From a virus, in the IMG/VR virus record IMGVR_UViG_3300036785_000613, positions 1 to 21,263 of that record: 21,263 bases of DNA; one strand, 5' to 3'. Both the position numbers and the translations under genes were made by a program. Of this stretch, positions 3,145 through 20,676 are shown piece after piece (within the stretch, counting starts at the first letter, position 1; every line of letters begins with the position of its first letter). The notes beneath the pieces are model-generated. The model did no database searches, was not told the origin of the DNA, and saw only the letters and a list, made by a program, of their open reading frames with translations.

Positions 3145-3157
3145 AAAGAAACGCAGA

Positions 3158-4666
3158 ATGGCAGTCTCAACATATAAACATGGCGTAACCTGGAAAGATG
3201 TAGCAACTTCCATTGTTTCGCCTATTACCGCAGATAGCGGAATTCCCGTTGCCACTGGAGCGGCACCGGTATTTATGGCGGATAGTCCAGCACCCTTAAA
3301 TATCCCTCGAATCTATCATAGTTTCGAGGAGGCAGTAGCGGAGATGGGATTTAGTAGTGATTTCAGGGCTTATCCCCTATGTGAGGTGATGTATAATTAC
3401 TTCGTATTACGTAATGTGGGTCCCATTATTTTAAATAATATATTGGATCCAAACGATAGTAGTTTTTGGGGAACACCCGTTGATGATCCCTATACCTTTA
3501 CTACTCCCTCCATTACAGTGGGTCCCAACATTCCTAAATCCTCGGTATCTGTTAAGGATGAAGCGGGTACCATTACCTATGTTTTGGGTACGGATTATGT
3601 ATTGAGTTATGATTCAAAGGGTAATTTGGTGGTTACTCAACTTCCTGCGATGGCGGGAGGAAACATTCCTCTGGGAGCAAATGTAAAGATAGATTATACC
3701 CCTCTTGATCCTAGTTTGATAACTAAGGTTGAAGTTATAGGAGGGGTTGATCAGACCACGGGCAAGGCTACCGGTATACAAGCGGTGGATGATGTATTCC
3801 CTGCTTTGGGTATTGTACCCGGTATTCTGTTGACTCCTGGTTGGGCTCAGATTCCGGAGGTCGCAGCGGTCCTAGCTTCCAAGTCGGATAATATTAATGG
3901 TTGTTTCAGATGTACCGCCTATGTAGATATTGATTCCACCGCGGTAATTAAGGCACAGGATGTATATGCCTGGAAGCAGGCTAACAATTATGTGGATCAT
4001 CGATTAATCGATTGTTGGCCTAGGGTCGCAATTGATGATACCCAAAGTTGGTTGTCCACTCAGGCAGCGGCTTTAACGGAATGGGTGGATCAGTCTAATG
4101 ATGATATTCCCTATGAGTCTCCTTCCAATAAGAACCTGAAGATGAATAAGACCATCGCGGGGCCACTAGATGCTCCCGTTGATCTATTCTTTGGTAAGGG
4201 TAGTGCAGATATGTTAAATGGACAGGGAATTGTTACCGCCATTAATTGGATTGGAGGTTGGAAACTATGGGGTAATAATACCTCGGTTTATCCGAGTAGT
4301 AGTGATCCCAAGGATCGATGGATTAGTGTTCGAAGGTCTACGGATTGGTTGGGTAATACGATTGTGTTAACCATTTACCAATTTGTGGATAAGCCCGGTA
4401 ATCGGAGGTTGATTGATGCGGTAATTGACTCCCTGAACATCTGGCTCAATAGTTTGGTGAGTAGTGGGGTTTCCCTAGGTGCAAGGGTGGAATTTCGACA
4501 AAGCGAGAATAGTGATGCGGACCTGTTGAATGGGCATTATACCTTCCATGTCTTTGAGGCCTTCCCCACTCCCGCAGAATGGATTGAGTTCTTGATTGAA
4601 TTCGATATAACCTACCTACAGGCTTTGTTTGTTTCCTCGCAGTCACAAACACCCCTGGCAGCTTAA
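3158..4666 (+). CDS. FI: Contractile tail sheath protein (P2 FI type)
   Basis: 502 residues with the start taken at 3158 (MAVSTYKHGV). The frame is open back to 3086, but those 24 extra residues overlap the upstream gene and do not look like a sheath N-terminus. The product forms the outer contractile tube. Seen: an N-terminal arm (YKHGVTWKDV), the early nucleotide-fold-like part with YHSFEEAVAEMGF, and a C-terminal domain of the sheath type (LIDAVIDSLNIWLNSLVSSG, then GARVEF and a long amphipathic end with EFDITYLQALF). Between about residues 118 and 188 there is an extra beta-rich segment (VLGTDYVLSYDSKGNLVV...KIDYTPLDPS), which makes the protein about 100 residues longer than P2 FI and probably forms a surface domain. 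The tube gene follows, as in P2. Confidence 0.9.
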   Translation: MAVSTYKHGVTWKDVATSIVSPITADSGIPVATGAAPVFMADSPAPLNIPRIYHSFEEAVAEMGFSSDFRAYPLCEVMYNYFVLRNVGPIILNNILDPNDSSFWGTPVDDPYTFTTPSITVGPNIPKSSVSVKDEAGTITYVLGTDYVLSYDSKGNLVVTQLPAMAGGNIPLGANVKIDYTPLDPSLITKVEVIGGVDQTTGKATGIQAVDDVFPALGIVPGILLTPGWAQIPEVAAVLASKSDNINGCFRCTAYVDIDSTAVIKAQDVYAWKQANNYVDHRLIDCWPRVAIDDTQSWLSTQAAALTEWVDQSNDDIPYESPSNKNLKMNKTIAGPLDAPVDLFFGKGSADMLNGQGIVTAINWIGGWKLWGNNTSVYPSSSDPKDRWISVRRSTDWLGNTIVLTIYQFVDKPGNRRLIDAVIDSLNIWLNSLVSSGVSLGARVEFRQSENSDADLLNGHYTFHVFEAFPTPAEWIEFLIEFDITYLQALFVSSQSQTPLAA

Positions 4667-4680
4667 TGGAGGATTGATTT

Positions 4681-5199
4681 ATGCCAATGGTTCCGAATCA
4701 GGTTAACAACTATAGTGTCTGGTATCAGGGTAATAGGTTTATAGGTATGGCAGATTGTACCTTACCCAACCTTGCTAACATGACAGATGAATTGAAGGGA
4801 GCAGGATTGGGGGGTGCTATTAACTTCCCCGTTGCTGCTCATTACAATGACTGGGCATTAACTATGAACTTTCATACCATTACTCGGGAGGGAGTACAGT
4901 TGATGCGTCAGGATGGATTGAAGATTGAGGCTCGGGCGGGTATGCAATATCTGGATACCGGTCCCCATAAACTATATATAGGGGCATGGAGATTTGTGAT
5001 GGCCATCTTACCTCGAGGTTTTGATCTGGGTAAGTTGGAGGTGGGAACCAAAGAAACGAATGCCATTGAGGTGGGGGTTACCTACATCAAGGCTTTGTTG
5101 GATGGGGAAGAGATGTTCGAGAAGGATAAAATTAACCTAATTGATAGAGTGTTGGGCGTAGATTACGCGGCAGCGATAAGAAGCGCCATTGGAATATGA
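4681..5199 (+). CDS. FII: Tail tube protein (P2 FII type)
   Basis: 172 residues, the usual size of the P2 FII family, with GGAGGA at 4668-4673 seven bases before the ATG. It forms the inner tube through which DNA passes. Seen: the family-like opening in which a 'VNNYSVWYQGNRFIGMADC' segment is followed by TLPNLANMTDELKGAGLGG, the typical 'P.L....e...G.G..G' pattern. A beta-rich middle, then EVGVTYIKALLDGEEMFEKD near the end, match the 'Y.k...dG.e..eiD' strand of the family. It overlaps the chaperone gene by ATGA at 5196-5199, as tightly coupled tube-chaperone genes often do. Confidence 0.93.
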   Translation: MPMVPNQVNNYSVWYQGNRFIGMADCTLPNLANMTDELKGAGLGGAINFPVAAHYNDWALTMNFHTITREGVQLMRQDGLKIEARAGMQYLDTGPHKLYIGAWRFVMAILPRGFDLGKLEVGTKETNAIEVGVTYIKALLDGEEMFEKDKINLIDRVLGVDYAAAIRSAIGI

Positions 5200-5513
5200 T
5201 AGTTAAACTTACAGAACCACAGCAGATAAATGGCTCAGAGATAACTGAGATTGACCTGAAGATTGAAAAGCTAAAGGGCAAGGTATTGTTGGAGTTGGCC
5301 GCAGGGTATAGGAAGTATAATAGGGAATATACTCCCGTCCTGGAATTGGATAGGGGATTCCAGGCATTTGTGGCAGGAAGTGTATGTGGAATTAACCCCG
5401 AGGATTTGGGGGAACTACTGGCTCCTGATTTTGTGGAGGTTTGTACTACAGTACAAAATTTTTTGTTAAAATCGGCGCCAGCGGTGGCAACTCCTCCTGT
5501 ATTGAAGTCCTAA
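5196..5513 (+). CDS. E: Tail assembly chaperone E (zero-frame product)
   Basis: 105 residues. It opens as phage tail chaperones of the P2 gpE family do (VKLTEPQQINGSEITEIDL, i.e. 'L..P....G.ei.el.l..lk'), followed by a helical body (LKGKVLLELAAGYRKYN) and a short disordered end. The family binds the tape measure during tail assembly and is absent from virions. It lies between tube and tape measure, the standard location. A slippery heptamer T TTT TTG at 5459-5465, in the zero frame, allows a -1 shift into E'; if used, the product is the first 90 residues plus about 69 more. The stop at 5511-5513 overlaps an ATG (TAATG) in the E' frame. Confidence 0.85.
   Translation: MIVKLTEPQQINGSEITEIDLKIEKLKGKVLLELAAGYRKYNREYTPVLELDRGFQAFVAGSVCGINPEDLGELLAPDFVEVCTTVQNFLLKSAPAVATPPVLKS
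5459..5465 (+). promoter_or_regulatory. Programmed -1 frameshift slippery site (T TTT TTG)
   Basis: Zero-frame codons here are AAT TTT TTG TTA AAA. T_TTT_TTG fits X XXY YYZ, and A_AAT_TTT (5456-5462), overlapping it, fits as well. T TTT TTG is, to my knowledge, the heptamer used in the P2 E/E' genes. A short GCCA/TGGC stem at 5477-5488, 12 bases downstream, may help but is only 4 bp. The -1 frame is open from here to 5674. Confidence 0.8.
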
Positions 5514-5674
5514 TGAGATTAATTCTAACCATGGCTAGGGTTTTTAACACCCCCATTAATGTCTGGTTGGATATGGAATTACCTAGACTATTTGAATGGG
5601 TAATCATTGCAGATGAGATGAGGCAGGAGGAAATGCAAAGGAATAATATGCAGATGGTGGGACCCGGGCTTTAA
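5465..5674 (+). CDS. Tail assembly chaperone extension E' (-1 frame)
   Basis: The -1-frame extension of E, counted from the first codon after the slip (GTT at 5465) to TAA at 5672-5674, 69 residues. Its core, NVWLDMELPRLFEWVIIADE followed by MRQEEMQRNN, is the amphipathic helical pattern with conserved Trp seen in chaperone C-terminal extensions. A minor E-E' fusion of about 159 residues would be expected, similar in size to P2 E+E'. An alternative is separate translation from ATG 5513, which overlaps the E stop (TAATG) in the same frame and would give 53 residues. The stop lies in repeat copy 2. Confidence 0.75.
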   Translation, partial: VKIGASGGNSSCIEVLMRLILTMARVFNTPINVWLDMELPRLFEWVIIADEMRQEEMQRNNMQMVGPGL

Positions 5675-5688
5675 TAACCATTATTAAT
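5670..5688. repeat. Stop-hairpin-start element, copy 2
   Basis: TTTAATAACCATTATTAAT, 7-bp arms (5671-5677 / 5681-5687) around CCA. It provides in-frame TAA TAA for E' (5672-5677). The tape measure ATG is at 5691, two bases after the core; no Shine-Dalgarno site can fit at the normal distance. Confidence 0.9.
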
Positions 5689-5690
5689 TT

Positions 5691-8315
5691 ATGGCTGCTC
5701 CAGCGGAAGTTTTTGATACTGTCTTTAAAATCGGGGCCGTCTTTACGGGTGAGGCGGCCTTTGATAGGGCAAATAATGCGGTATCCCTATTAGAGAAGCA
5801 TGGTTTGTTGGCAGGGATGTCCCTAAAAAAGATGGTAGCTGCTGTAGGGGGAATGGCAGCAGGGGTATTTACGGTTTCCAAGATTACCGGTTATATTAAT
5901 AGTTCCGTGGCTGCTGCTAGAAATGCAAAGGCAGCCTATGAGGGGGTAGGAGAATCCCTAAAGAAAATACCCCAGATGCAAAAGCTGGGAGATACCGTTA
6001 TTACTGCTACCAAGGGTAAGTTAAAGGATTTAGCGGAGCAAATGCAGAAAACGGGGCTAGTAGCTTCCGAGTCCCTAATGGGTGCCTTTTCAAAGTTATT
6101 AGACCAGGGAATGTCTCCTCACAGGATAAAGGAGGTATCTGGAGCATTTGAGGATTTGGTAATTAGGGTAAAGGGGGTAGGAGCTACCGCGGAGGATGTA
6201 GCCTCGGTAGCTGATCAACTAGGGGGAGCTATTAAGGCGGGTGGAAAGGTGGGGGCAGATGCCCTAATTTCTCTGGGAGTTATTACCGAGGAGCAGAGGG
6301 GTAAGTTCGAATCTCTTAGTGATGGTAATAAGAGATATAACTATGTCCTGGGGCAGATGAATACCAAGGTAGGGGATACTGCAGAGGCAATGAAGACCTG
6401 GGCAGGATCACAACAGCGATTTAAGCTGGCCTTCAAGGATGTCTCTGTAGCCATTGGAACTCCCTTCATGGCAGCTCAGGATAAGATATCCGAGGCTTTA
6501 GTCAAGATTCAGGGTAAGCTACTTGAGAATACCACCAAGATTTCGGAATCGATTACTCCCGTTATTTCTAAGTATGCTGAAAAAGCTACTGATTTCTTTA
6601 TTAAATTAATTGAGGGTTCCGATAAGTGGGCTCCCAAGTTGGATGATATAGGTAAAACGGTTGAAAAGGTTTTTGGTTACTTTGAAAAACATCCAGAGTT
6701 GACGGGAGATATTGCCAAGGCGGTAGCGGTCTTGGTGGGTATTAAGGGAACCGCTATGGCAGTGAAACCGATAGGAGATTTAGTTAAGGGTATATCCGAT
6801 TTGTCAGGGGGAATGAAGTTAGTATTTGTATGGGGACCCAAGATTGGTACCGCGCTTACCGCTGCCTTTACTGCAATGGGACCCGCGGGTTGGATTACCC
6901 TGGCTATTGGGGGGTTTATTGCCCTCCTGGTTTTGATAATTACGCATTGGAAGGAGATAACCGAATGGATTGGAAAGGCATTTACCGCGGTCAAGGAGTT
7001 CTTTGGATATGCAGCAAAGGTAGTTAATCCCTTTAGTCCCGAATCTCAGAAAGCTACGGGTGAGGCGGTACAGTCCACTCGTCAAGCTACGATGGCTCCC
7101 GCAGCGATTAGTGATGCTAATAGATTGATTAAGGCAAGGGAGGAGGATGCGAAGCTAGGACCTACCCATCATGAACATTTCCAAGCTTTGAAGAAGGTAA
7201 TAGAAGCGGAGCATGCAGCTAAGAAAACTCAGGCTGAAAACACTACCGCGGTAAAGGATTCCACAGATGCTCTTTATGGTAAGTCTCCCGGCTTTATTCC
7301 AGGGCTAAGGACTTCCATTGCCTCACTTGCTAAATTTGAGACTTCCCTGGGTCAGGCAAATGCTAGTGTGTCAACCTTTAGTAGTTCCATGGGAGGGATG
7401 TCTTTAGGAGCAGGAGGTATGCCAGGAATGGGAGGAGGGATGTCCTTAGGAGGAGGAGGAGCAGGAGGTGCTATGGGAGGCATAGGAAGCATGGGAGGTA
7501 TACAGGTTACCCATTATGGCTATGAGAAAAAGGGACAGAAGGATTGGGATCCCAATAGTGCCGCAGGAATTGGAGCCTATAATAATAAGCTAGTAGCGGG
7601 ATATGATGTTGCTCTAAATAGAATGAGTGCCGCTAAATTGGGAATTAACTATGATAAGGATTTGGGCAAAACCTTTGCCTATGGAGGTAAAACCTGGAGG
7701 TATGGAGATCGAACAGCGGAGTGGTTACCCAACCCTCGATTTGATGTTTATGATCCGGGAGGTAATTTAGTTAGAGGACAACATGGAGGTCTAGTAAATA
7801 AACCTTCCCTGGCTTTATTGGGGGAGAAGATACCTGAGATGACTATACCCTTGGAAGCTACTCCTAAAAGTAGAGGGTTGGTAGGAGCTGCTGCGGAGAA
7901 AACGGGTATGGCACCCTCAATGTTAGAAAGTGCATTAAAAGCTATTGGTATTAATCTGGGTAAAATTAATATAGGCTCCGTTAATTTAGGTAAGGTATTT
8001 AGAGAATGGTCCCCGGGACCGGCAGGTACGGCGGAACAATTTGGCAAGGCGGAACAGGAAATTTTCCGTAGAATGGAAGGTCAGGGTTCTATGAAAACTG
8101 CTGCTGATAGAATAGGTAGAGAAGGAACAAGGGGTAGGGAGTCAGGTCCCATACACCTTTCGATGAGTTCTCCTATTACCATTAATGGGGTACCCGCAGG
8201 GGAGGAGGGTAGAATTACCAAGGAAGTACAAAAGGCTATGCAAGATCCCGTTAAACAATTGTTGGATCAATTAAAGAAAGCCAAGTCTCAGGAACAACGT
8301 TTAAGCTACGCATAA
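5691..8315 (+). CDS. T: Tape measure protein (gpT-like) with internal hydrolase-like domain
   Basis: 874 residues, the longest product, in the standard slot after the chaperone. It sets tail length and crosses the cell envelope during DNA ejection. Order of parts: Ala/Gly-rich N-terminal hydrophobic stretch (about 45-65), long helical part with repeated Lys/Glu/Ala (70-390), a transmembrane-like segment at about 396-418 (GWITLAIGGFIALLVLIITH) followed by W-rich helices, a Gly/Met-rich linker at about 566-604 (runs such as GGMPGMGGGM), then a compact segment at about 606-690 beginning VTHYGYE and ending RFDVYDPGG, and a GGLVNKPSLALLGE..PEMTIPLE motif common at tape measure C-termini. The 606-690 block resembles double-psi beta-barrel (RlpA/3D-like) murein-active domains; this is inference. 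It starts directly at repeat copy 2. Confidence 0.9.
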   Translation: MAAPAEVFDTVFKIGAVFTGEAAFDRANNAVSLLEKHGLLAGMSLKKMVAAVGGMAAGVFTVSKITGYINSSVAAARNAKAAYEGVGESLKKIPQMQKLGDTVITATKGKLKDLAEQMQKTGLVASESLMGAFSKLLDQGMSPHRIKEVSGAFEDLVIRVKGVGATAEDVASVADQLGGAIKAGGKVGADALISLGVITEEQRGKFESLSDGNKRYNYVLGQMNTKVGDTAEAMKTWAGSQQRFKLAFKDVSVAIGTPFMAAQDKISEALVKIQGKLLENTTKISESITPVISKYAEKATDFFIKLIEGSDKWAPKLDDIGKTVEKVFGYFEKHPELTGDIAKAVAVLVGIKGTAMAVKPIGDLVKGISDLSGGMKLVFVWGPKIGTALTAAFTAMGPAGWITLAIGGFIALLVLIITHWKEITEWIGKAFTAVKEFFGYAAKVVNPFSPESQKATGEAVQSTRQATMAPAAISDANRLIKAREEDAKLGPTHHEHFQALKKVIEAEHAAKKTQAENTTAVKDSTDALYGKSPGFIPGLRTSIASLAKFETSLGQANASVSTFSSSMGGMSLGAGGMPGMGGGMSLGGGGAGGAMGGIGSMGGIQVTHYGYEKKGQKDWDPNSAAGIGAYNNKLVAGYDVALNRMSAAKLGINYDKDLGKTFAYGGKTWRYGDRTAEWLPNPRFDVYDPGGNLVRGQHGGLVNKPSLALLGEKIPEMTIPLEATPKSRGLVGAAAEKTGMAPSMLESALKAIGINLGKINIGSVNLGKVFREWSPGPAGTAEQFGKAEQEIFRRMEGQGSMKTAADRIGREGTRGRESGPIHLSMSSPITINGVPAGEEGRITKEVQKAMQDPVKQLLDQLKKAKSQEQRLSYA

Positions 8316-9912: not shown

Positions 9913-10088
9913 TGATTTCAACATTAATAGCATTGTTGATAGTAGGGTTAATTCTATACCTGATTTGGTTTATTTGTGGGATGTTTATTAAGGGACAACC
10001 TCTTCAGGTTATCGGAATTATTCTAGGGCTAATATTTCTGTTATATGCATTGAATACATTGGGAGTGTTTGGGGTACATATTCGCTAA
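9912..10088 (+). CDS. Small two-helix membrane protein
   Basis: 58 residues, starting on the last base of repeat copy 3 and overlapping the spike gene by TAATG at 10086-10090. Two hydrophobic segments are obvious: about residues 3-25 (STLIALLIVGLILYLIWFI) and about 32-55 (VIGIILGLIFLLYALNTLGV), joined by a short polar loop with FIKGQPLQ. This is the size and topology of a family of tiny phage membrane proteins and of some small holins. Placement between hub and spike rather than by an endolysin argues against assuming holin; a role in envelope passage, or simply an early-located holin, are both possible. No signal peptide cleavage site is evident. Confidence 0.7.
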   Translation: MISTLIALLIVGLILYLIWFICGMFIKGQPLQVIGIILGLIFLLYALNTLGVFGVHIR

Positions 10089-10717
10089 TGGACTATGATA
10101 GTGACAGTGTGTTCCCGGTTAATAAGACGGGGAGAGATTCCGAGATAAGGAATCTTTTGAGACATGGTAAGGTTACGGAGGTATTATGTGATGAGACCCA
10201 AACCTGTGTTAGGGTACAATGGTTGGATAAGAAGGGATTGATTAGTAAGCCCTTACCGGTACTACAGTTTGGTAGTCGAAGTACCAGTGCCTTTTGGTGC
10301 CCCAAGGTAACGGATGATGTAACGGTACAAATGTTGCCTAATGGGAGTGAGGATGGGTTTGTTATCGGTACTTTTTATAATACTGGAAATCCTCCTCCCA
10401 TTAAGGATCCTGATACTCGACACATTACCTATGCTGATGGAACCACCATGGAATACCGGGAGAGTTTGGCTGCGATCATCAAGGACGGAGTGCAGGTCAG
10501 GGCGGGTAGGCAGGGACAACTAACCATTAATTCACCAAATCCCATTAGTATTATCTGTGGTAACTGTACCATCAAGGCATCGATCATTACCCTGGATGCA
10601 CCAGATACCAAGATTACGGGAATGCTTTGGGTGGATGACATCAAGCCTTACCAGAAATCGGAGACCACCGCTCATCCCCATGTTAAGAATGCGGATGGTA
10701 GTGGTAATGGATCATGA
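10088..10717 (+). CDS. V: Baseplate spike protein (P2 gpV type)
   Basis: 209 residues. It is the central membrane-piercing spike. N-terminal OB-fold-like part: VTEVLCDETQTCVRVQWLD, then 'FGSRSTSAFWCPKVTDDV' and a GSEDGFVIGTFYN strand (the gpV/gp45 family 'Vrv.......w.p.vGd.v.vl...GdpdgGvvlGs'). From about residue 110 a beta-helical part shows short repeats (DGTTMEYRES, then NPISIICGNCTIKASIITLD and APDTKITG). The C-terminus has HPH at 196-198 followed by a Gly/Asn/Ser-rich end, resembling the His-x-His iron site at the P2 spike tip. It is coupled on both sides: TAATG upstream, ATGA downstream. Following hub D rather than lying next to W is a change from P2 order. Confidence 0.88.
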   Translation: MDYDSDSVFPVNKTGRDSEIRNLLRHGKVTEVLCDETQTCVRVQWLDKKGLISKPLPVLQFGSRSTSAFWCPKVTDDVTVQMLPNGSEDGFVIGTFYNTGNPPPIKDPDTRHITYADGTTMEYRESLAAIIKDGVQVRAGRQGQLTINSPNPISIICGNCTIKASIITLDAPDTKITGMLWVDDIKPYQKSETTAHPHVKNADGSGNGS

Positions 10718-10959: not shown

Positions 10960-10973
10960 TAACCATTATTAAA
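10957..10973. repeat. Stop-hairpin-start element, copy 4
   Basis: TAATAACCATTATTAAA; 6-bp arms (10957-10962 / 10966-10971) around CCA. The left edge differs from the other copies (AATAATAA instead of TTTAATAA), but the TAA TAA stop and the overlap with the next ATG (10973) are kept. Confidence 0.85.
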
Positions 10974-11380
10974 TGATAGGTACGTTTGGAGTTTTGATGT
11001 TCGAGTGTAGTAGGAGAAGGATACATACCTTCTCTGATTTGACGGTTAATAATACCAACAGGTTTGCCGAGCATCAGGTACATTTGCAAATGCCCATTTT
11101 GGAGTTTGTGGGCCCTGGTTTGACGGAGGTGGGATTTCGAATGAACTTCAATACGGAGTGGGGTAGCGAACCCACCGCATCCTTGCTTATTTTAAGAACC
11201 TATGTGAAAAGTGGTTTTGTTGCTCCCCTATTGGTGGGTATGCGTCCCGTAACCCTAGGGTTTAATATGTTTGTTTGTGTGGGAGTGGGAGAGGAACACA
11301 AATGGTTTAATAATAAGGGAAGATTGTTTGGTGCTGCGGTAGATGTACAGTTAAAGGAATATCGGGTATTATTGGTATGA
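10973..11380 (+). CDS. U: Tail protein U (P2 gpU type)
   Basis: 135 residues, starting on the last A of repeat copy 4. It opens MIGTFGVLMFECSRRRIHTF, then FAEHQVHLQMPILEFVGPGL and a 'GFRMNFNTEWG' strand, the P2 gpU pattern ('w.eh.....p.lef.G.gl..i.f...l'). A helix (TASLLILRTYVKSG), PLLVGMRP, and FGAAVDVQLKEY close the domain as in the family. In P2, gpU is needed for tail completion near the tape measure and hub. Here it sits after the spike and directly before the W domain protein, joined to it by ATGA at 11377-11380. Confidence 0.85.
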   Translation: MIGTFGVLMFECSRRRIHTFSDLTVNNTNRFAEHQVHLQMPILEFVGPGLTEVGFRMNFNTEWGSEPTASLLILRTYVKSGFVAPLLVGMRPVTLGFNMFVCVGVGEEHKWFNNKGRLFGAAVDVQLKEYRVLLV

Positions 11381-13218
11381 GTCAATCATTAGATACTTTG
11401 GATTTGATTACCCCTCCCAGAAGGGATATACAGGTATCGCCCGCGAGGATTGACTCCTCCGTTCTGGGAGCATTACAGGTAACCACCCCTGAGGGTAGAT
11501 ATGTCTTGAGTCAGGATATTGACTTTGGAGCAACAGGGGTGGAGGAGGTTTTTCAGAATGTTAAGTATATTCTATTAACGGAATATTTTAGTGTTCCTCT
11601 GGATCGAGAGTTTGGTATGGATTTCACTATGGTGGATAAACCCATACCCATTGCGGAAGCAATGCTAACCCAGGAGATTGCCATAAAGATTTCCCTATAT
11701 GAACCTCGGTGTCAATTCACGGAAATCAATTTCGAGGGTAAAGGTATTGAGGGTAAGTTAAATCCCCTGGTGACCATTAATATCCTATCCACCGATGAGT
11801 TACTTAGTCGTTACCCCACACCCGTTACTCCCTCCACAGAGCAAATAGCGATAGCTACCGTTTACGCGGAGGAGTATCCAAACTTTCTAGATTTCTTGGG
11901 CTCCCTTACAAAGGGTCCTGAGGGACCTCCCGGATTAGCCGCCACCGTTGATTGTGGAGAGACCTATACGGGAGATCCCGGAACTCGGGCGATGGTTGAG
12001 AATGTAGGAGATCTACACAATGCAATCTTTGAGTTTACCATACCTCGGGGTGATCAAGGTGTCATTGGACCACATGGAGTGCCTGCCTATACGTTCTCGA
12101 TAGCTGATTTTACTATTCCCGCTATAGGTGAAACCGTAGTCATAGATGTGGAGGATGTCTCTTGGGCGACCACTGGCGAGTTCCTCTGGGTAGAGGGAGC
12201 CGAAAGGAATGAGGCGGGTAGTCTTAAGATAGTGGGTATTGACATTGTTAATAATCGGCTTACCTTAGAAAATCCTATAGCTACGGAGGTTATAACAGAG
12301 GCTCCTATTGACGGTAAGATTTATGGTAGACAAGATGCTAGTTGGACAGAGGTAGGAAAAGAAGATACAGGCACCTATAATCTAGGACATTATGCGAATC
12401 CAGCTAATCCATTGTATGCGGATATGACTGTGGGAGCTAACTTTACTGTTAGTGTAGAGGGAAAGTTAGTAGAAGTTAGTTTCTATAAAACAGCGGGAGA
12501 GGCATCTTTTGTTAACCATGCTTTTATTTTATGGGATACTAATATGGTTCCTTTATGGAATCATCCTCCAGATAGTGATCCCGCGGTGGAAGGATGGATT
12601 ACCCATAAACTACCTGTTCCGATTCCCTTAACTGCGGGAACCTATATATTAGGTATTCATGTTAATGAACATCCACGAGATACAACTTGTCTGCCCTATA
12701 CGGATGGTCCTTTAACAGAAAATTATGGTTGCTGGATTGAGGGGAATGGTTTCCCTAATAATAATACATTAGATCATTTTGGTCTTGATTTAGTATTCGA
12801 AGTAGGAGTGAAGGATGTAATTGCTCCTGATTCTATTACTACAGCAATGATTCAGGATGGAGCTGTAACAGGGGCTAAGATTGCTGATGGAACAATTACT
12901 GATATTAATTTAGCAGAGGGAGTGACTAAAGCTAACTTGGGGTTTACACCGTTGAACAAAGCAGGCGATTCGATGACGGGAAACTTATCCGTTAATCATC
13001 CTAGTAGAATATATATAAAAAGTGATCTTGGATTGTCTAGTGGTTCATATGCCTCAGCCAAGTTACTGCTTGAAACTACCGTTGGAAATGCAGCAGTAAG
13101 ACCGGGAATTGGTTTTCATCTACCGGGTAATGTTGGTGCATATTTATATCTTGATACAGATGGCAAAATGAAATTTATAGATAGTTCGGGAACAATTCAC
13201 ACAATTACTTCGACTTAA
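11377..13218 (+). CDS. W: Baseplate wedge (gp25/W) domain fused to fibre-like extension
   Basis: 613 residues in one open frame. Residues about 50-150 are a gp25/gpW lysozyme-like wedge domain: VEEVFQNVKYILLTEYFSVP, LDREFGMDF, MLTQEIAIKISLYEPRC and 'I.......G....G.L.P.V.I.I'. Normal family members stop near here (100-160 residues). This one continues with short collagen-like bits (GPEGPPG at about 180; RGDQGVIGPHGVP at about 224-236), a beta domain (237-320) shared with the next fibre protein, a DUF4082-like jelly-roll segment (about 335-475), a TGAKIADGTITDINLAEGV helix-turn linker (about 500), a LNKAGDSMTGNLSV fibre motif, and a beta tip. Predicted role: wedge component that itself carries a receptor-binding arm. 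Codon use appears more AT-rich after about 12,360, which suggests acquisition of the extension. Confidence 0.85.
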   Translation: MSQSLDTLDLITPPRRDIQVSPARIDSSVLGALQVTTPEGRYVLSQDIDFGATGVEEVFQNVKYILLTEYFSVPLDREFGMDFTMVDKPIPIAEAMLTQEIAIKISLYEPRCQFTEINFEGKGIEGKLNPLVTINILSTDELLSRYPTPVTPSTEQIAIATVYAEEYPNFLDFLGSLTKGPEGPPGLAATVDCGETYTGDPGTRAMVENVGDLHNAIFEFTIPRGDQGVIGPHGVPAYTFSIADFTIPAIGETVVIDVEDVSWATTGEFLWVEGAERNEAGSLKIVGIDIVNNRLTLENPIATEVITEAPIDGKIYGRQDASWTEVGKEDTGTYNLGHYANPANPLYADMTVGANFTVSVEGKLVEVSFYKTAGEASFVNHAFILWDTNMVPLWNHPPDSDPAVEGWITHKLPVPIPLTAGTYILGIHVNEHPRDTTCLPYTDGPLTENYGCWIEGNGFPNNNTLDHFGLDLVFEVGVKDVIAPDSITTAMIQDGAVTGAKIADGTITDINLAEGVTKANLGFTPLNKAGDSMTGNLSVNHPSRIYIKSDLGLSSGSYASAKLLLETTVGNAAVRPGIGFHLPGNVGAYLYLDTDGKMKFIDSSGTIHTITST

Positions 13219-13224
13219 TAAAAT

Positions 13225-13467
13225 ATGAATGAACGAATCAGAGTAGATAGTTTTCAGGTTGTCCATTTCAAGGACCTCTTCATTAATGAGAGTAATGGAG
13301 ATAAAATAGAAAAGGAGGTTATAATTCTCTATGCTCTAGGGGAGGATGGAATCATTTACGAGATGTTGGGTGGAAAATGGCTACCCATACCTATCACTCC
13401 TGAAAACCTTCGAGAGATGCCTCAGCCTCCTCCAGAGGTATTAGCTAAACTTCAACAAAGAAAATGA
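13225..13467 (+). CDS. Small hypothetical protein in fibre island
   Basis: 80 residues. Beta-rich first half (VDSFQVVHFKDLFIN, EVIILYALGEDGIIYEML) with GGKWLPI, then a Pro-rich basic tail. The 'YAL.EDG.IYE...GKW.P' pattern resembles small one-domain proteins next to tail fibre genes, but no function is known to me. The upstream stop is TAATAA (13216-13221), which looks like half of the intergenic repeat. ATGA overlap (13464-13467) couples it to the S74 fibre gene. Confidence 0.55.
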   Translation: MNERIRVDSFQVVHFKDLFINESNGDKIEKEVIILYALGEDGIIYEMLGGKWLPIPITPENLREMPQPPPEVLAKLQQRK

Positions 13468-14837
13468 GCATTCCAGGGGTCATCGTTAGAGGAGGTAGTC
13501 TAATCACTCCGGGTGGTGATCAGGGTGTGCCTGGTGCACCCAGCACCGTGCCGGGTCCTCAGGGCGATAACGCCTACACCTTGAGTAGTCAGGATTTCAC
13601 TGTTCCTGATGTAGGACTCTCTGCGGACCTAACAGTAGAAGATAGTGATTGGATTGCGGTGGGGCAGATGGTTTATCTAGCTAATGGCGCAGGGCCAGAA
13701 GAGGCGCAGGCTTTTAAGGTGACTGCGAAGAATGGAAATGTGGTTACCCTCTGGTGTCCTGAGCCTCCTGGAGTTGCTGAGATTCCCCTTGCTGATTCTA
13801 CTGAAGATGGGTTGATGAGACGAGTCAGCGGGCTAACTACTGATTTTGTAAATGGTACCAATAGTTGTACTAATCTGGTAAATGCGTTGACAGGAGCTTA
13901 CCTGCCGCTCTCAGGCGGAACGTTGACGGGTAGTCTTTCTTGCTTAGGTCTTACTTCCGGTAGTCATACAGTCAATGGGAATCTCCAATGCAATGGAGCC
14001 ATGACTTGCACGAGTGACCTAAGGTGTGGAAACAATCTCTATTTTGCAAATACTCAGTGGCGTTTCGGTTTTGATCCATCCAATGGCAGAATTCACTACT
14101 GGAGTTTTGATAATCGAGCATTGTTTTACTATGACCCTCCTGGAAACCAGTTAGTTATCAGTGGTCACTGCAATGTATCAGGTAATGTTTATGCGGCAGC
14201 GGGAGTTTTTAATACGACAGGAAGTTTTGCAGGTGTCTTAACCTGTTCCACTGATTGTAACATTAGTGGAAATCTAAACGTATGGGGTGGTACAGGGTAT
14301 TTTGGAGGCATTGTTTCTGCGGGTTTGGATGGTTTACGCACTCCTGTTGGAATGCAGAATCGTATCAGTTTCCATTGGAATGGGGCTAACATTTTTGGCA
14401 ATATTGATTCGGCTATTGGCTGGCGTCAGCTAGATTTCACTAGTGATGCAAGGTTAAAGGAGGATATTGCAGCCTCTACCTTCGATTGCTTGGATATAGT
14501 TCTCAGATTACCCCTCCAACAGTTTCGCTGGAAGCCAACTATAAAACCCGAGGATAGTCCTGTTCGAGATGTGGGAGACAAAAGAACTCGAATGCAAGCT
14601 AGGGATGGTAGAACTCCCTTGATTCCGGTGGGCTTTGTTGCCCAACTGTTGTATCAAGTTTTCCCTGAGGCAGTGTGTAAGGGAGATGATGGGGAGGCAG
14701 AACCTAGTCAGAGATTCAACTGGGATGTGGATAAGAATACCATGCTGGCTACCTTAACGGGTGCTATTCAACAGCTTAGTGCCAAGGTGGAATCCCTCGA
14801 AGCCCGAGTGATGGAACTGGAAGGGAGTCCCATCTGA
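13464..14837 (+). CDS. Tail fibre with S74 self-cleaving intramolecular chaperone
   Basis: 457 residues. N-terminus IVRGGSLITPGGDQGVPGAP is shared in pattern with the next fibre and probably anchors it in the virion. Then a short collagen-like VPGPQGD, a beta domain (about 36-110) also present in the wedge-fusion protein, a repeated GTLTGSLS / SGNV.A / SGNLNV beta-strand shaft (about 150-290), and at 327 the S74 start SDARLKEDI. S327 and K332 have the five-residue spacing of the Ser-Lys dyad known from Myrf and endosialidase chaperone domains, so autocleavage before S327 should release a chaperone of about 131 residues after trimerisation. The end is a coiled coil (IQQLSAKVESLEARVMELEG). It overlaps the neighbours by ATGA and TGATG. 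Confidence 0.88.
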   Translation: MSIPGVIVRGGSLITPGGDQGVPGAPSTVPGPQGDNAYTLSSQDFTVPDVGLSADLTVEDSDWIAVGQMVYLANGAGPEEAQAFKVTAKNGNVVTLWCPEPPGVAEIPLADSTEDGLMRRVSGLTTDFVNGTNSCTNLVNALTGAYLPLSGGTLTGSLSCLGLTSGSHTVNGNLQCNGAMTCTSDLRCGNNLYFANTQWRFGFDPSNGRIHYWSFDNRALFYYDPPGNQLVISGHCNVSGNVYAAAGVFNTTGSFAGVLTCSTDCNISGNLNVWGGTGYFGGIVSAGLDGLRTPVGMQNRISFHWNGANIFGNIDSAIGWRQLDFTSDARLKEDIAASTFDCLDIVLRLPLQQFRWKPTIKPEDSPVRDVGDKRTRMQARDGRTPLIPVGFVAQLLYQVFPEAVCKGDDGEAEPSQRFNWDVDKNTMLATLTGAIQQLSAKVESLEARVMELEGSPI

Positions 14838-15967
14838 TGCCTGTTACCGTTCTAGCAGGCAGTTTGGTAACTCCCGGTGGAAAGCAAGGACCTGAAGGAA
14901 TACCTGGACCACCTGGAGGACCTCCGGGACCTCAGGGTGATAAGGGTGACAAGGGTGATAAGGGAGATAAGGGTGATAAGGGAGATATTGGAGATACCGG
15001 AGCAGATTCCACGGTACCAGGACCTCAGGGTGACAAGGGAGATAAGGGGGATAAAGGTGATACCGGAGATACGGGAGCGGATTCTACGGTACCCGGACCA
15101 CCGGGATATGATGGCAATCCCGTGGGAGCCGTTATTATGTGGCCTACCAGCATTGCTCCTTTATACTATCTAAGTTGTGATGGTAGTGAAAAGCTAATAG
15201 TAGACTATCCTGAGCTGGCTGGTGTGTTAGGAGAAATCTATGGTGTAGCTAGTGATGCTAGTTTATTTAAACTGCCTGACTTTAGGAGTAGGACAGCAGT
15301 TGGTATGGGACAGGGACCGGGAGGATTAACCGATAGGGTAATAGGGATAAGAGGAGGCGAGGAAACCAATGTATTAACCGCAGCTACGATGCCTCCTCAC
15401 AGCCATACAATTACCATCTTTGATCCTACTCATTCCCATACGATCACTATCTATGATGGTTCGCATAGTCATCTTATGGATCACTGGCATCCTATTCCCG
15501 GCAACCAGTTCTGGCATAGTCATACCGTGGGCGATCCTACTCATTGGCACTACATGCAAAACAGCCAGCCCATCAATTATGGAGATGCTGGTCTAATAGC
15601 AGGACCATACCAACAACTTTATACCCTGAATGCCGGAGGTTATCGGTACTGGGAAGGATGGACTCAATATGCAGGAGCAGGAATAGTGGTCAACGGAGTT
15701 TATTGCCCGGCAGGTAGTACCACCTGGGCTAGTTCAGCTAGTGCTGATTGGAATCGAACTGGTACGACGACTGCCAATATTACTGCGCAGGCAGGGGGTA
15801 AAGCAACATCAATATCGGCAACCTCCGCTTCGGTTGGAGGGGGAGAAGCACATAACAATATGCCTCCATTCATCGTCCAAAACTACGTTATTAAGGCACT
15901 AGGAGGACAGTCAGAACTTCAAATTCTTCGAAATGAAATTATGGAGTTAAAGAAACTATTACTATGA
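14837..15967 (+). CDS. Collagen-like tail fibre with HxH-rich collar tip
   Basis: 376 residues. Residues 18-93 are Gly-X-Y repeats rich in GDK triplets with two copies of GDTGADSTVPGP (52-63 and 77-88). From 97 a phage tail-collar domain begins (VGAVIMWPTSIAPLYYLSCD, then PELAGVLGEIYG, FKLPDFRSRTAVGMG). After TAATMPPHSH there is a His-rich part with four HSH and two HWH triplets, then a Gly/Ser-rich section and the typical closing NNMPPFIVQNYVIKA. The last 20 residues are a leucine-zipper-like helix. Known collar and T4 gp37 tips use HxH to bind iron along a trimer axis; the same is inferred here. It is probably the receptor-contacting short fibre. It starts on the upstream TGATG overlap. Confidence 0.88.
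   Translation: MPVTVLAGSLVTPGGKQGPEGIPGPPGGPPGPQGDKGDKGDKGDKGDKGDIGDTGADSTVPGPQGDKGDKGDKGDTGDTGADSTVPGPPGYDGNPVGAVIMWPTSIAPLYYLSCDGSEKLIVDYPELAGVLGEIYGVASDASLFKLPDFRSRTAVGMGQGPGGLTDRVIGIRGGEETNVLTAATMPPHSHTITIFDPTHSHTITIYDGSHSHLMDHWHPIPGNQFWHSHTVGDPTHWHYMQNSQPINYGDAGLIAGPYQQLYTLNAGGYRYWEGWTQYAGAGIVVNGVYCPAGSTTWASSASADWNRTGTTTANITAQAGGKATSISATSASVGGGEAHNNMPPFIVQNYVIKALGGQSELQILRNEIMELKKLLL
14936..14980 (+). repeat. Tandem 9-base repeat coding (Gly-Asp-Lys)5
   Basis: Five consecutive GGN-GAY-AAG units; three more follow at 15029-15055 inside a second, 75-base-displaced copy of the surrounding segment (14990-15025 vs 15065-15100). Unit gain or loss keeps the frame. Confidence 0.9.
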
Positions 15968-16329
15968 GTATATATACAACAACGTATAAAATGAGGTATG
16001 CTATTCCTAGCTTACAACAGCAAATAGAAGTAGCAGTTATGCATTCGGCGGAGGATATTCATAATGAAGATCCTGCAACACCTGATCACGAGAATAGAAT
16101 GTTATGGGCTAACTGGGCTACTAAAAATTCTAGCATGGCTTGGATACCCTTCTCGTGGCCCGTGTCATTTAATCCTACCATTATTGCTGCTGTTGAGGCA
16201 GATCCCACGGGAGCTTCTATACTAGATGCTGATGTACAGTTTGCAGTTAATTCAGTATTACCTATTGTGTTAGCTGATTGGTTAGCTAATCCTCCCTCCG
16301 GAGCAATCTCTTCCGCAATGAGAAAGTAA
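15964..16329 (+). CDS. Small conserved-type phage protein of unknown function
   Basis: 121 residues from an ATGA overlap with the collar fibre. It has the layout of a small family I have seen beside tail fibre genes: an N-terminal helix (YAIPSLQQQIEVAVMHSAED) followed by 'NE.P.TPDHENRMLWA', a segment of hydrophobic residues around FNPTIIAAVEA, and DADVQFAVNSVLP near the end. These match a recurring pattern (NE-P-T-x-NH-x-NR...W-A ... D-x-x-x-Q-F-x-V-N-S). No function is established that I know of. A structural adaptor or fibre accessory role is inferred from location. Confidence 0.6.
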   Translation: MSIYTTTYKMRYAIPSLQQQIEVAVMHSAEDIHNEDPATPDHENRMLWANWATKNSSMAWIPFSWPVSFNPTIIAAVEADPTGASILDADVQFAVNSVLPIVLADWLANPPSGAISSAMRK

Positions 16330-16331
16330 TT

Positions 16332-16574
16332 ATGCACCTTAATACCTTATTTCGAAAAGACTCAGTAGAGTTAAACTCTTATCTAGCTAAGCATCCAATA
16401 GGAAGGACCATGGTAGCCTCAGATGGATCCAAAACTTGGACCGTTAAGGATGTTGTGTTCAAAACTGATTTACCTCCAGATCCAGAGATGGGTGATATGG
16501 TTATGGTACAGGTGATTTTAGAGAGTCCTGATGCGCCAGAAGCCACACGATCAACGATAGCGCCCCCAATTTAA
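16332..16574 (+). CDS. Small hypothetical protein at end of fibre island
   Basis: 80 residues, two bases after the previous stop (AGTAATTATG). Contains a central beta-like stretch (TMVASDGSKTWTVKDVVF) and a second strand (DMVMVQVILES), flanked by a polar N-terminus and a Pro-ending C-terminus. Not recognised. Its stop TAA (16572-16574) is the left arm of repeat copy 5. Confidence 0.55.
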   Translation: MHLNTLFRKDSVELNSYLAKHPIGRTMVASDGSKTWTVKDVVFKTDLPPDPEMGDMVMVQVILESPDAPEATRSTIAPPI

Positions 16575-16589
16575 TAACCATTATTAAAT
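16569..16589. repeat. Stop-hairpin-start element, copy 5
   Basis: ATTTAATAACCATTATTAAA plus a closing T; 9-bp arms around CCA (16578-16580). Tandem in-frame stop TAA TAA (16572-16577); the next ATG (16588) overlaps the right arm. Confidence 0.92.
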
Positions 16590-17775
16590 GAGTACCGCAC
16601 AATTACCTCTATTCAATTTTGATTCCTCCATTGTCCCGGACATAGACTTCTGTGTTAAGGATGCCTCTCAAATTGAATCAGATATGATTAGTAATTATGA
16701 GGGAGCCTTTCTTCTATTAACCCAGATGGCTATGACCCTGGGGCGAGGTGATCCCCGTAGATTATTCCTATTAACCATTGCCTATCAAATAGTGGTACAG
16801 CGTTCCATCGTAGACTCGACGGGTAAGGAGAACCTACTCAAATATTCACATGGGGGTAATCTGGAAAACATTGGAGCGATGTATGGAGAGCGAGCAAAGC
16901 GAATTAAGGCAACCTTCGCAACCGTTACCCTGGAATTTAGGGTAGCTAACACCATTACCACCGATTGTCCCATACCCGAGGGAACCCTGGTACAAAGTGG
17001 GAATGCACTTCAATTTGCAACAGTGGTACCTTCCAATATTCAGGCGGGTACCCTAACCACCACAGTTAAAGCCAAAGCAGTAGCATCGGGTGAGAAGTAT
17101 AATCATCTGGTTCCCGGACAGATTAATCAGTTAGTTAGTTGGAATAGTCCCTTTCTGGTTAATGCCGTTAATATTACCACCAGTGGAGGAGGAGCTAGTG
17201 TTGAGTCAGATGATCATTTGCGAGCTAGAATCTGGTTTACTCCGGAATCCTTTTCCACCGCGGGACCCAAGGAAGCATATATGTATTGGGCGGGTAGTGC
17301 AAATCCCAGCATTATCGATGTTAGTGTTTGGAGTGCTCCCGAGGTTGCGGGACAGGTATATGTTTATCCCCTAATGACTAATGGTCAGTTACCTGATCAG
17401 GAGGTAATAGATCAGGTATATGCCAAGTGCAATGCCGATGATATTAGACCCCTGACTGATCAACTATTTGTACAAGCTCCCACTGCCTCGGGTTTTGTAG
17501 CTACCGTAGAGTTTTGGATAGACAAAGCCAATGCTCGATTTGAGGATAGCTTACGAGATGCGGTTTACAAAGCTTATGAAGATTGGATACTTTGGCAATC
17601 ATCAAAGATAGGTTTGGATATTAATCCCTCAAAGTTGGATCAGATGATGGTGGATGCGGGAGCTAAACGTACCAACATTATTAGTCCTGTCTTCACAGTA
17701 ATTGATGCAAAACATTTAGCTATATGTGATATTCCCAACTCACTATGTACCTATAAAGGATTGGAGGAGAAATAA
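16588..17775 (+). CDS. J: Baseplate wedge protein J
   Basis: 395 residues (P2 gpJ is about 300). It starts on repeat copy 5. The central part is typical of the baseplate J family: LEFRVANTITTDCPIPEGTL (strand with 'ip.Gt'), QAGTLTTTVKAKAVASGEKY ('...v.A...G...N'), then TTSGGGASVESDDHLRARI ('t.GGaD.EsDe.lR.Ri') and 'STAGPKEAYMYWAG', SIIDVSVWSAPEVAGQVYVY, RPLTDQLFVQAP. The N-terminal 100 residues are mainly helical (LLLTQMAMTLGRGDPRRLFL), longer than in P2. The product joins wedges at the baseplate periphery with W and I. W lies about 5 kb upstream, separated by the fibre genes. Confidence 0.9.
   Translation: MSTAQLPLFNFDSSIVPDIDFCVKDASQIESDMISNYEGAFLLLTQMAMTLGRGDPRRLFLLTIAYQIVVQRSIVDSTGKENLLKYSHGGNLENIGAMYGERAKRIKATFATVTLEFRVANTITTDCPIPEGTLVQSGNALQFATVVPSNIQAGTLTTTVKAKAVASGEKYNHLVPGQINQLVSWNSPFLVNAVNITTSGGGASVESDDHLRARIWFTPESFSTAGPKEAYMYWAGSANPSIIDVSVWSAPEVAGQVYVYPLMTNGQLPDQEVIDQVYAKCNADDIRPLTDQLFVQAPTASGFVATVEFWIDKANARFEDSLRDAVYKAYEDWILWQSSKIGLDINPSKLDQMMVDAGAKRTNIISPVFTVIDAKHLAICDIPNSLCTYKGLEEK
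17763..17769 (+). promoter_or_regulatory. Ribosome binding site fixing start at 17777
   Basis: GGAGGAG, seven bases before ATG 17777. The frame is open upstream to 17726, but that start lies within gene J and has no comparable site, so 17777 is chosen. Confidence 0.75.
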
Positions 17776-17776
17776 A

Positions 17777-18175
17777 ATGGCCCTGAAAGAAGACCTAGAT
17801 GCTATTCGAGCCTCAATCGAGGAACTAAGTAAACGCATGACCGCATTAGAGGAAAGGTGGAAACCACCTCCAATGATGTCAACTCCCTTTGGGCCTGATG
17901 ATCCCGAGTTTCAGCAGGGTCAGGGTAATACTCTCGTTACTACCCCTAGGGATGATAGTTTTTCTCATCCTGATGATCCATTGGGAATTATGCCGGTGGT
18001 GGAGGGAAAACAGCTACCTTCATTTAAGATACCTCCTAAGCCTTCTAAGGGTGGAGGATTCGTTCTTCCCTCTGAACTACAGTCTGTTTTATATCCCCTA
18101 ACTCCTCCCGCTGAAATGCCACCTCGACCCAAAGAACTACCTTTGTTTGTAAAGATACTTAGCCCCGATGTTTAA
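17777..18175 (+). CDS. Coiled-coil / proline-rich protein between J and I
   Basis: 132 residues with start at 17777, one base after the J stop. The first 30 residues form a clear heptad helix (LDAIRASIEELSKRMTALEE). The remainder is low-complexity, Pro/Gly/Asp-rich (PFGPDDPEFQQGQGNTLV, LPSFKIPPKPSKGGGFVLPS, TPPAEMPPRPKELPLFVK) and probably extended. It overlaps gpI by 8 bases. In P2, I directly follows J, so this is an inserted gene. A trimeric or dimeric linker in the wedge is a guess from structure; not recognised. Confidence 0.65.
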   Translation: MALKEDLDAIRASIEELSKRMTALEERWKPPPMMSTPFGPDDPEFQQGQGNTLVTTPRDDSFSHPDDPLGIMPVVEGKQLPSFKIPPKPSKGGGFVLPSELQSVLYPLTPPAEMPPRPKELPLFVKILSPDV

Positions 18176-18725
18176 AACCATAGATATAGTTCCCTCCAGC
18201 CTTCGAGATGATCCCCAGGTGCAGGCTATGTGTGTGGCACTCGATGAGGAGTTGAAGGAGGTTTATAATTGTATTCCCTCGATCTGCTTCATACCCTTTA
18301 TTAAACAGTTAGAGCCTCCCTTATTGGATATCTTAGGTTGGCAATTTCATGTAGACGTTTGGGCGGGTTGGGATGTTACCCTAGATAATGAAACCAAACG
18401 AGAGTTGATTCTACAGTCCATTCAATGGCATGCTAAGAAGGGTACCAAGTGGGCGGTGGAGCAGGTATTACAAACGGTATTTAAGACGGGTAGAGTAACG
18501 GAATGGTATGAGTATGGTGGAAGACCTTATTTCTTTAGAATCACTACCGACGAGGATATTGTCGATATTACCAAAATGTTAAGGGTATTGGATGCCGTTT
18601 ATGCCCTTAAGAATGAGAGGAGTTGGTTGGATGAGTTTATTAGGACGAGGGTACAGGGTCAACTCCTGTTTGTAGGTATGGTCGTTACCCATCAAATCAC
18701 CACCAGAATCCGAATGGCTAAATAA
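18168..18725 (+). CDS. I: Baseplate wedge protein I (tail protein I)
   Basis: 185 residues. Family features are clear: VPSSLRDDPQVQAMCVALDE ('lP.sl..d....a...ald.el') followed by PPLLDILGWQFHVDVW ('p..lLd.LA.q..vd.w'), KRELILQSIQWHAKKGTKWA ('kr..i......H..kGT..Av'), VTEWYEYGGRPYFFRI. P2 gpI binds J and the fibre H at the baseplate edge; the next gene here is a fibre, in keeping with J-I-H order. Its stop is TAA at 18723-18725 in repeat copy 6. Confidence 0.92.
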   Translation: MFKTIDIVPSSLRDDPQVQAMCVALDEELKEVYNCIPSICFIPFIKQLEPPLLDILGWQFHVDVWAGWDVTLDNETKRELILQSIQWHAKKGTKWAVEQVLQTVFKTGRVTEWYEYGGRPYFFRITTDEDIVDITKMLRVLDAVYALKNERSWLDEFIRTRVQGQLLFVGMVVTHQITTRIRMAK

Positions 18726-18741: not shown

Positions 18742-20676
18742 ATGTCTAACTTTAAAAATCAGCAGTTAACGGATGTGGGCTGGGATGCCCTGTCCGTAGC
18801 TCTGGGAGGGGGTCGTATAACCTTCTTCAAAATGCAGGCCGGTGATGGAAATATTGTCGCTGATGGCGCAATTCCTCCCATGGTAGGTTTGGTTAATCCC
18901 AAGACAGATATTGGAATTCATAAGTATGAAATTGACGATCATGGTCAGATTACCCTTTATGGAAACATTGCTAGTTCCACCCTTCCCACCGGATTCACCT
19001 TTCGGGAGTTAGGTATCTTTGTTTCTGTGGAACCTCCTGAAGCGGGAGTGGGAGGTACTCCCATGCCTCCCTCCATAGTGGTGACGCCTCCCACCGATAC
19101 CGCACCTGACATACCGGATCCAACGACCGGTACCGCGATCATGTACTCGTACTGTAACTCCTATACCTACTCGGATTATATTCCAGGAAGTGGAGAAACT
19201 ACGGATGTGGTTAATACCATTCAGGTAACGGTTAAGATTGACAAGGCTGCCAATATCGAGGTTATCATTACCGAGGGACAACAGCTCTCACTCGAGAATA
19301 TTGGTCCCCCTAGCGTGGGCGCGGGTCCCTGGAGTCATACCCAGGCTAATGTTGCTTATATAAAACGATTAGTTGCGGGACCCATGACCGAGATTAGTGA
19401 GGATGCCAACACCATTAAGATAGGTCAGAAACAACTTTCCTTTAGTGCGATCCTATATGTTGCATTGGGTAATCCAAATGTGGCTCCTCACTTTTCCAGT
19501 ATTTGGAACGCGATGTACTGGTTGTCTCAATATATTTTGGGACCTGGAGTTACTATATGGATTAGAGTTTATCCCGGGGTCTACTGGCAGAATTGGTGCG
19601 TTTACATGGATCATGTTAACGGCCAACAGATAGTTATTGAGGGAGTGGGCTCAGATGGACAGCCAGATGGAGATTCCTATTTCTCGGGGGTTAGTGCAAT
19701 CTCAGGAGGTCCCTGGGGTTGGTATGTAACCTTGTCAGGATGCACCAACATGAGAAACATTCGTCCCGGTAGTTGGCTGAATGTTTGGCATGGAGGGGGA
19801 TCACGATATTTGAGTAGTGCCTTGTTGGGAGGGTTTTTTCCGGTGCATGCTGTGGCGGGAAATACGGTGACAGTTATCATCCCCTGGGCAGAAGGAAGTT
19901 GGCCTAGCTTGGAGGGATTCGGAGGGGGATACTTTAGTGTCGTCAATGTTCTTCTGGGTATTACAGTTGCGGGCCAATATGGAGCAGTTATTGGTAATCA
20001 TGGAATTGGACAATTCAGAAATATTGGTATTTACAATGGAGCACCTCGACGGGACAATTGGTGTGTTAATGGTTTTGGGATCTTTGGTCCCTCCAATATT
20101 TATCGATGTGGAGTCTACGGATTCTTTAACAACCGAGGAGAGAACGGAGGGTTTGCTATTGTATCTTATGGCACCGCGCTTTACTATTGTAGTTCCACCC
20201 TCAATTCGACAGGTATGATTGTTTGTGGCGATGGTACCGCTGCTTGCTGTTATTGCTCCTTCTGTCATAATGGAATAATGGGAATCTGGACCCAGGGAGG
20301 CACCACTTACTCACATCGAGGTTATGTCTTTGTTGCCGGGAATGGTTACGCTTACCATGGAGCAGCACTGCTGGTTGCGGTGAGATCCATTTTCATTAGT
20401 CAGGGTGCAATTGAGGGAGCCTACTATACCGGTAATTGGTGGTCTGTTTATAATGCGACATATGGTATGTATATGACTCACCAGAGTGAGTATATTCAAA
20501 GCTCTGTAAATGATTCCCTAACTATGGTTTACAATGGTAGAATAGGAACTACTGATCAACTTGATCTAGCAATTCAGGGACTCTCAGTTTGTAATTCAGC
20601 CTCGATCTATGGTAGCCGTAGATTCAACATCCCCGTTAATCGTTTGTCTTGGGATGGTTGTATAATCTATGGCTAA
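18742..20676 (+). CDS. Large tail fibre: tail-collar-type anchor plus beta-helix body
   Basis: 644 residues. Residues 1-190 resemble phage fibre anchors of the tail-collar (DUF3751-like, P2 H-like) type: FKNQQLTDVGWDALSVALGG, FFKMQAGDG, FTFRELGIF, then TIQVTVKIDKAANIEVIITE; a Pro/Thr-rich insertion (about 95-130) interrupts it. From about 240 a long Gly/Tyr/Trp/Asn-rich body with repeating short strands (GVTIWIRVYPGVYWQNWCVY, then QIVIEGVGS and so on) looks like a right-handed beta-helix of the tailspike kind. Near 480-510 there is a Cys cluster (CGDGTAACCYCSFC). It follows gpI, as H does in P2. Enzymatic activity on host surface polysaccharide is possible; no catalytic residues can be named. 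No fibre-assembly chaperone gene (gpG-like) follows. Confidence 0.85.
   Translation: MSNFKNQQLTDVGWDALSVALGGGRITFFKMQAGDGNIVADGAIPPMVGLVNPKTDIGIHKYEIDDHGQITLYGNIASSTLPTGFTFRELGIFVSVEPPEAGVGGTPMPPSIVVTPPTDTAPDIPDPTTGTAIMYSYCNSYTYSDYIPGSGETTDVVNTIQVTVKIDKAANIEVIITEGQQLSLENIGPPSVGAGPWSHTQANVAYIKRLVAGPMTEISEDANTIKIGQKQLSFSAILYVALGNPNVAPHFSSIWNAMYWLSQYILGPGVTIWIRVYPGVYWQNWCVYMDHVNGQQIVIEGVGSDGQPDGDSYFSGVSAISGGPWGWYVTLSGCTNMRNIRPGSWLNVWHGGGSRYLSSALLGGFFPVHAVAGNTVTVIIPWAEGSWPSLEGFGGGYFSVVNVLLGITVAGQYGAVIGNHGIGQFRNIGIYNGAPRRDNWCVNGFGIFGPSNIYRCGVYGFFNNRGENGGFAIVSYGTALYYCSSTLNSTGMIVCGDGTAACCYCSFCHNGIMGIWTQGGTTYSHRGYVFVAGNGYAYHGAALLVAVRSIFISQGAIEGAYYTGNWWSVYNATYGMYMTHQSEYIQSSVNDSLTMVYNGRIGTTDQLDLAIQGLSVCNSASIYGSRRFNIPVNRLSWDGCIIYG

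Follow-up and report, generated by a model that had tools for sequence, protein, structure and literature searches.

A gp25/gpW-type sheath initiator continued in frame by a collagen-like, fiber-type arm in an IMG/VR virus and its relatives

An exceptionally long homolog of the sheath initiator gp25/gpW is encoded by the plus strand at 11377-13218 of the window, as we call the whole 21,263-nt stretch of viral DNA that was analyzed. Its gp25/gpW domain is followed in the same frame by a linker, a collagen-like stalk, and several fiber modules. At a probability of about 65%, we consider the protein to be a gp25/W sheath initiator that has a fiber of the neighboring cassette fused to its C-terminus and doubles as an anchor or adhesin. 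It is still debated by which path host contact reaches the contractile sheath, and a sheath initiator covalently linked to a fiber would cut that path to one protein.

A Single Uninterrupted Frame

The open reading frame runs without interruption from the ATG at 11377 to the stop at 13216-13218 and encodes 613 aa, at exactly the coordinates proposed in a first-pass annotation made from the sequence alone. The unusual length that this annotation pointed out is borne out by comparison, since about 470 residues lie downstream of the gp25 domain, compared with 0–10 residues past the domain in 72 measurable relatives. Given the base composition of the window, about 470 extra open codons would be expected by chance with a probability of about 1e-13. 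The search for the same fusion that the annotation had recommended was also productive, as the architecture was matched in seven further IMG/VR contigs (L001, L008, L009, L010, L011, L012, and L013; L010 and L005 are one and the same contig) and is thus conserved across eight phages, which make up a small, uncultured group with contractile tails.

The sequence is single and comes from a metagenomic contig, so that an assembly error or a stop codon lost in one contig might be suspected, and a missed stop near codon 160 was what the first-pass annotation itself had feared. However, the seven other contigs carry in-frame arms and share the junction, while their gp25 domains are 65–77% identical to that of the window. 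This excludes that just one contig lost its stop or was wrongly assembled, and we regard such a reading as already refuted, its remaining chance being virtually nil.

The gp25/gpW Domain

The sheath-initiator domain occupies residues 45–140 (11509-11796, plus strand). Residues 52–137 matched phrog_43 ("baseplate wedge subunit") with an E-value of 2.9e-17, while the score against the Pfam family GPW_gp25 (PF04965) was 13.1 bits, under the cut-off of 27.2. The bare gp25 of L008 is likewise under this cut-off (15.8 bits), indicating that both belong to a subgroup far from the Pfam model. The domain of the window is 47% identical to the gp25 of KLER1-1, and the gp25 core residues are retained in every armed copy.

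Residues 1–300 were modeled with AlphaFold from an alignment of 66 rows, from which three rows of annotated phage records had been left out. The pLDDT was about 80–96 per ten-residue block at residues 50–140, and the VIA comparison of the model gave Z-scores of 10.3 with PA0617 of pyocin R2, 9.3 with T4 gp25, and 9.1 with XM1 gp15 over 91–95 residues. The wedge domain suggested in the first-pass annotation, and the likeness to gp25 that it expected of a structure prediction, are both in agreement with these results.

Composition of the Arm

As judged from sequence, the arm is made of fiber modules shared with known fibers. It begins with a linker (residues 141–179; 11797-11913, plus strand) of the pattern TPS...P.F..F...L, which resembles the linker of the armed relatives and contains short predicted helices at residues 154–159 and 170–178, with low to middling model confidence. 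Two Gly-X-Y runs flanking a fiber module of about 36 residues follow (11914-12084, plus strand; phrog_32311 and phrog_21765). These runs are short (three triplets at residues 180–188 and four at residues 225–236), while up to 14 triplets are found in L013, and the stalk with its module is 39–41% identical to fibers of Gordonia, Eggerthella, and Stenotrophomonas phages. The next part is a fiber-type beta domain (residues 237–300; 12085-12276, plus strand) with a pLDDT of about 74–94 per block from residue 241 onward. A similar domain is present in the separate fiber of the window at 13464-14837 and in fibers of L008 and L009, and the region also matches Nodularia and Gordonia phages. The linker and beta domain alone, used as a query, retrieved no new loci.

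Residues 346–463 (12412-12765, plus strand) form a DUF4082 domain (PF13313; E-value 3.2e-7, 30.9 bits, above the cut-off of 28.4). The protein ends with a fiber tip (residues 482–613; 12820-13215, plus strand), which is 40% identical over 111 aa to a stand-alone fiber of L009 (7655 to the contig end); the C-terminal part also matches distal tail fiber proteins of Thermus phages. The first-pass annotation had described an in-frame, fiber-like extension made of collagen-like bits, a beta domain, a DUF4082-like jelly roll, and a fiber tip, and all of these parts were recovered.

Armed Relatives and the Exchange of Tips

In IMG/VR, 135 relatives were confirmed in a profile search for gp25, and frames were measured in 81 sequences, namely the best 80 of the 135 and L006. 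Seven of the 81 extend 132–553 residues past the gp25 domain and the other 74 extend 0–10 residues; two of the latter (L035 and L086) run off the end of their contigs and cannot be judged, which leaves the 72 measurable relatives lacking an arm. L035, which is 71% identical, may belong with the armed group. No relative was found in the bacterial genomes that were scanned. The armed proteins group in a single clade of our phylogenetic tree (support 100/99), which also includes the bare copy of L008. This contig has two adjacent gp25 genes, one bare (152 aa, 3414-3872) and one armed (409 aa, 3869-5098), a pair that offers a natural handle on the number of arms.

In the armed relatives the gp25 domain is followed by a linker and then by Gly-X-Y runs, while the ends of the arms differ. 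The window has a DUF4082 domain and a tip, L001 ends in a collar domain, and L010 has another long tip; collagen is repeated in L013, and the arms of L009, L011, and L012 are short stubs. The tips are also found on separate fibers of sister phages: the L010 arm is 41.5% identical over 491 aa to an L009 fiber (4699-6153), and 78% identity over 215 aa is shared by the L001 arm and an L005 fiber (2739-4139). Because the tips vary between phages and recur on the fibers of sister phages, the arm appears to be a fiber gene of the neighboring cassette joined to W. The simplest history suggested by these sequences is that W was joined with the next fiber gene and that the tips were then exchanged. Tips that alternate between the fused and the free state would show how baseplates acquire adhesins.

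Gene Neighborhood

The baseplate, tail, and fiber genes given with coordinates in this paragraph lie on the plus strand. A gpV-like baseplate spike protein (10088-10717; phrog_6142, E-value 1.6e-10) is followed by a P2 GpU-like tail protein (10973-11380; PF06995, E-value 2.4e-15), which overlaps the start of W by 4 bases. The order X-D-V-U-W in the window is that of phages with a W of 101–106 aa, such as KLER1-1, Pd_22F, and HFM1, in which the order is X-D-V-U-W-J-I-fiber and J directly follows W. In the window, a fiber cassette (13225-16574) is inserted between W and J. It encodes a separate tail fiber (13464-14837; PF13884, E-value 1.6e-11), which opens with collagen-like sequence and also contains the shared beta domain and an S74 chaperone, and a separate collagen-like collar fiber (14837-15967; PF07484 and PF01391). 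Downstream are the baseplate J protein (16588-17775; PF04865, E-value 1.1e-45), a Tail_P2_I baseplate protein (18168-18725; PF09684, E-value 2.9e-22), and a conventional tail fiber in the H position (18742-20676; phrog_7037, E-value 3.1e-20). The sheath proteins of the window and of Vibrio phage X29 share about 43% identity.

Several side observations were made in the window and in other contigs. A 121-aa gene at 15964-16329 resembles, by eye, the ORF that follows the fiber gene of L012 (7012 to the contig end). The start of a GpU-like gene was found at 6001-6081 of L007 (85% over 27 residues), on the strand opposite to the otherwise different phage genes of this contig, which could be chimeric. 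A 17-base motif, TTAATAACCATTATTAA, is repeated at gene boundaries of the window (2853, 5671, 9895, 16571, and 20680, plus strand) and occurs with one mismatch at 10956 (plus strand) and 18722 (minus strand); at up to three mismatches there are 13 matches, with same-site matches on the opposite strand counted, compared with 0.3 expected. The motif lies immediately before GpU and J, so that U, the armed W, and the fiber cassette stand between two copies. It is possibly a promoter or operator, and L011 is the one other locus in which an exact copy was found. A check for internal starts, from which a fiber might be translated separately, showed only weak Shine-Dalgarno-like strings inside the W ORF, and few are present at real starts as well; most of the tail gene starts checked in the window have no such string, a scarcity that may hint at the type of host.

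Proposed Function and Alternative Explanations

In XM1, six copies of the gp25 homolog sit atop the core bundle of the wedge and abut the first sheath ring (PMC10457771), as do those of the Mu baseplate (PMC11915804), and the Pa193 homolog occupies the same site in six copies, with only residues 2–109 built (PMC11042391). The XM1 whose structure was solved infects V. harveyi and V. rotiferianus and was not equated with a V. parahaemolyticus record that bears this name. By homology to these three structures only, six copies of the armed W would be expected; the outward, receptor-binding-type arms that the first-pass annotation predicted, six per baseplate if the protein is expressed whole, are conjectural. 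The fold, the gene position, and the absence of another copy from the window suggest that the N-terminal domain would sit on each wedge and seed the first sheath ring. No density was seen for the seven C-terminal residues of XM1 gp15 (PMC10457771), making it plausible that a C-terminal extension leaves the wedge, and the homologous wedge protein of phage Milano is disulfide-bonded to the tail spike (PMC10811340). The linker would exit the wedge bearing the collagen-like stalk and the exchangeable beta domains, which would either adhere to the host surface or serve as anchors for the other collagen-type fibers of the cassette. Speculatively, an adhesin covalently attached to a protein between wedge and sheath would place host contact one step from the trigger of contraction.

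Collagen-like stalks normally trimerize and need three chains. Collagen trimers would by implication fit six separate gp25 monomers poorly, and the arms may form two trimers, be three in number, or remain single. Binding is not the function of every arm, as those of L009, L011, and L012 are short and have no recognizable receptor-binding tip. It is a doubtful extension of our reading that each armed gp25 bears or docks a fiber, as an adhesion anchor through which receptor contact is covalently passed to the first sheath ring, with the bare and armed pair of L008 setting the number of arms (e.g., three of six, giving one trimer).

The arm might instead be mainly an adaptor, the helix and collagen stalk of which docks the downstream collagen-type fibers, with fused tips as occasional passengers. 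The short-armed L009, L011, and L012 retain the linker and stalk and have no long tip, their next gene, within a few bases, encodes a collagen-like fiber with nearly no N-terminal anchor, and the window fibers at 13464 and 14837 also begin almost directly with Gly-X-Y. However, the long arms of the window, L001, L010, and L013 are at odds with this role, and the H-position fiber keeps its own usual N-terminus, so we consider it possible but on the whole unlikely. It is improbable that the protein is made whole and then cut, giving a virion with an ordinary gp25 and a free fiber. Proteolytic maturation is common among phage structural proteins and the linker is predicted to be flexible, but no site for a protease was recognized, relatives conserve the linker, and the separate bare gp25 gene of L008 would be needless if cutting supplied bare gp25.

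That same bare gene, adjoining the armed one, is what favors regarding the armed copy as a paralog that only carries a fiber and does not initiate the sheath, the true gp25 being elsewhere in the genome. We hold this to be very improbable, since the gp25 core is intact in all armed copies and, apart from L008, the other armed contigs, which are fragments, have one gp25 each in the usual place after U. No second gp25 was found within the window, itself a fragment. Because the window has the armed copy alone, this copy would also have to start the sheath, unless the genome encodes a further gp25 beyond the fragment. A sheath initiator that doubles as an anchor or adhesin is the reading we prefer.

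Comparison with Known Sheath Initiators

Members of the gp25/gpW family (T4 gp25, P2 W, Mu gp46, XM1 gp15, and pyocin R2 PA0617) have in common with the window W the fold, the place after V and U, and the sequence core QN, VPLDR.FG, and YEPR. They are about 100–150 aa long and have no fiber, whereas the window W continues far past this domain. In the literature searched, we came across no account of a sheath initiator joined in this way to collagen-type, exchangeable fibers. A gp25-type protein joined to another domain is known from the SPO1-like BW1-BW4 fusion, A511 gp102 (PMC10811340), although the partner there is a LysM structural domain and not an adhesin. In siphophages, the evolved Dit is a structural tail-tip protein described as having gained carbohydrate-binding modules (PMC10688798, PMC9128512), on a scaffold unrelated to gp25 and in non-contractile tails. 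KPP12 ORF32 (L098:5208-5990; 260 aa), with a sheath-initiator domain and a low-complexity tail, was dropped as a precedent, because 394 bases aligned with near-identical Pbunaviruses where 393 were expected, suggesting a one-base frame difference particular to KPP12.

Elongated sheath initiators already exist in sequenced phages. The architecture that the first-pass annotation called unusual is so in its length and fiber arm, but it is not unique, as extended gp25-like proteins occur in cultured phages of Vequintavirus and Barbavirus. Vequintavirus RudolfGeigy bas52_0023 (238 aa) is gp25-like with a C-terminal extension, and tail fiber genes follow its gene; its extension is far shorter than the window arm, and no fiber tip was recognized in it. 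A viral fold search pointed to a 437-aa protein of Rheinheimera phages, of which Barbavirus gp114 (Rheinheimera phage Barba1A, 441 aa) is, by length, likely the counterpart. Like the window W, gp114 has a gp25-like N-terminus (phrog_120, E-value 2e-21, residues 1–107), continued by about 330 residues, and its gene lies between those of the spike and J. It differs in belonging to another gp25 family and in having no collagen or fiber tip, and its extension, with weak Ig/fn3-like matches (E-value about 0.1), is likely of independent origin. As Barbavirus has been cultured, it is a testable parallel to the armed W.
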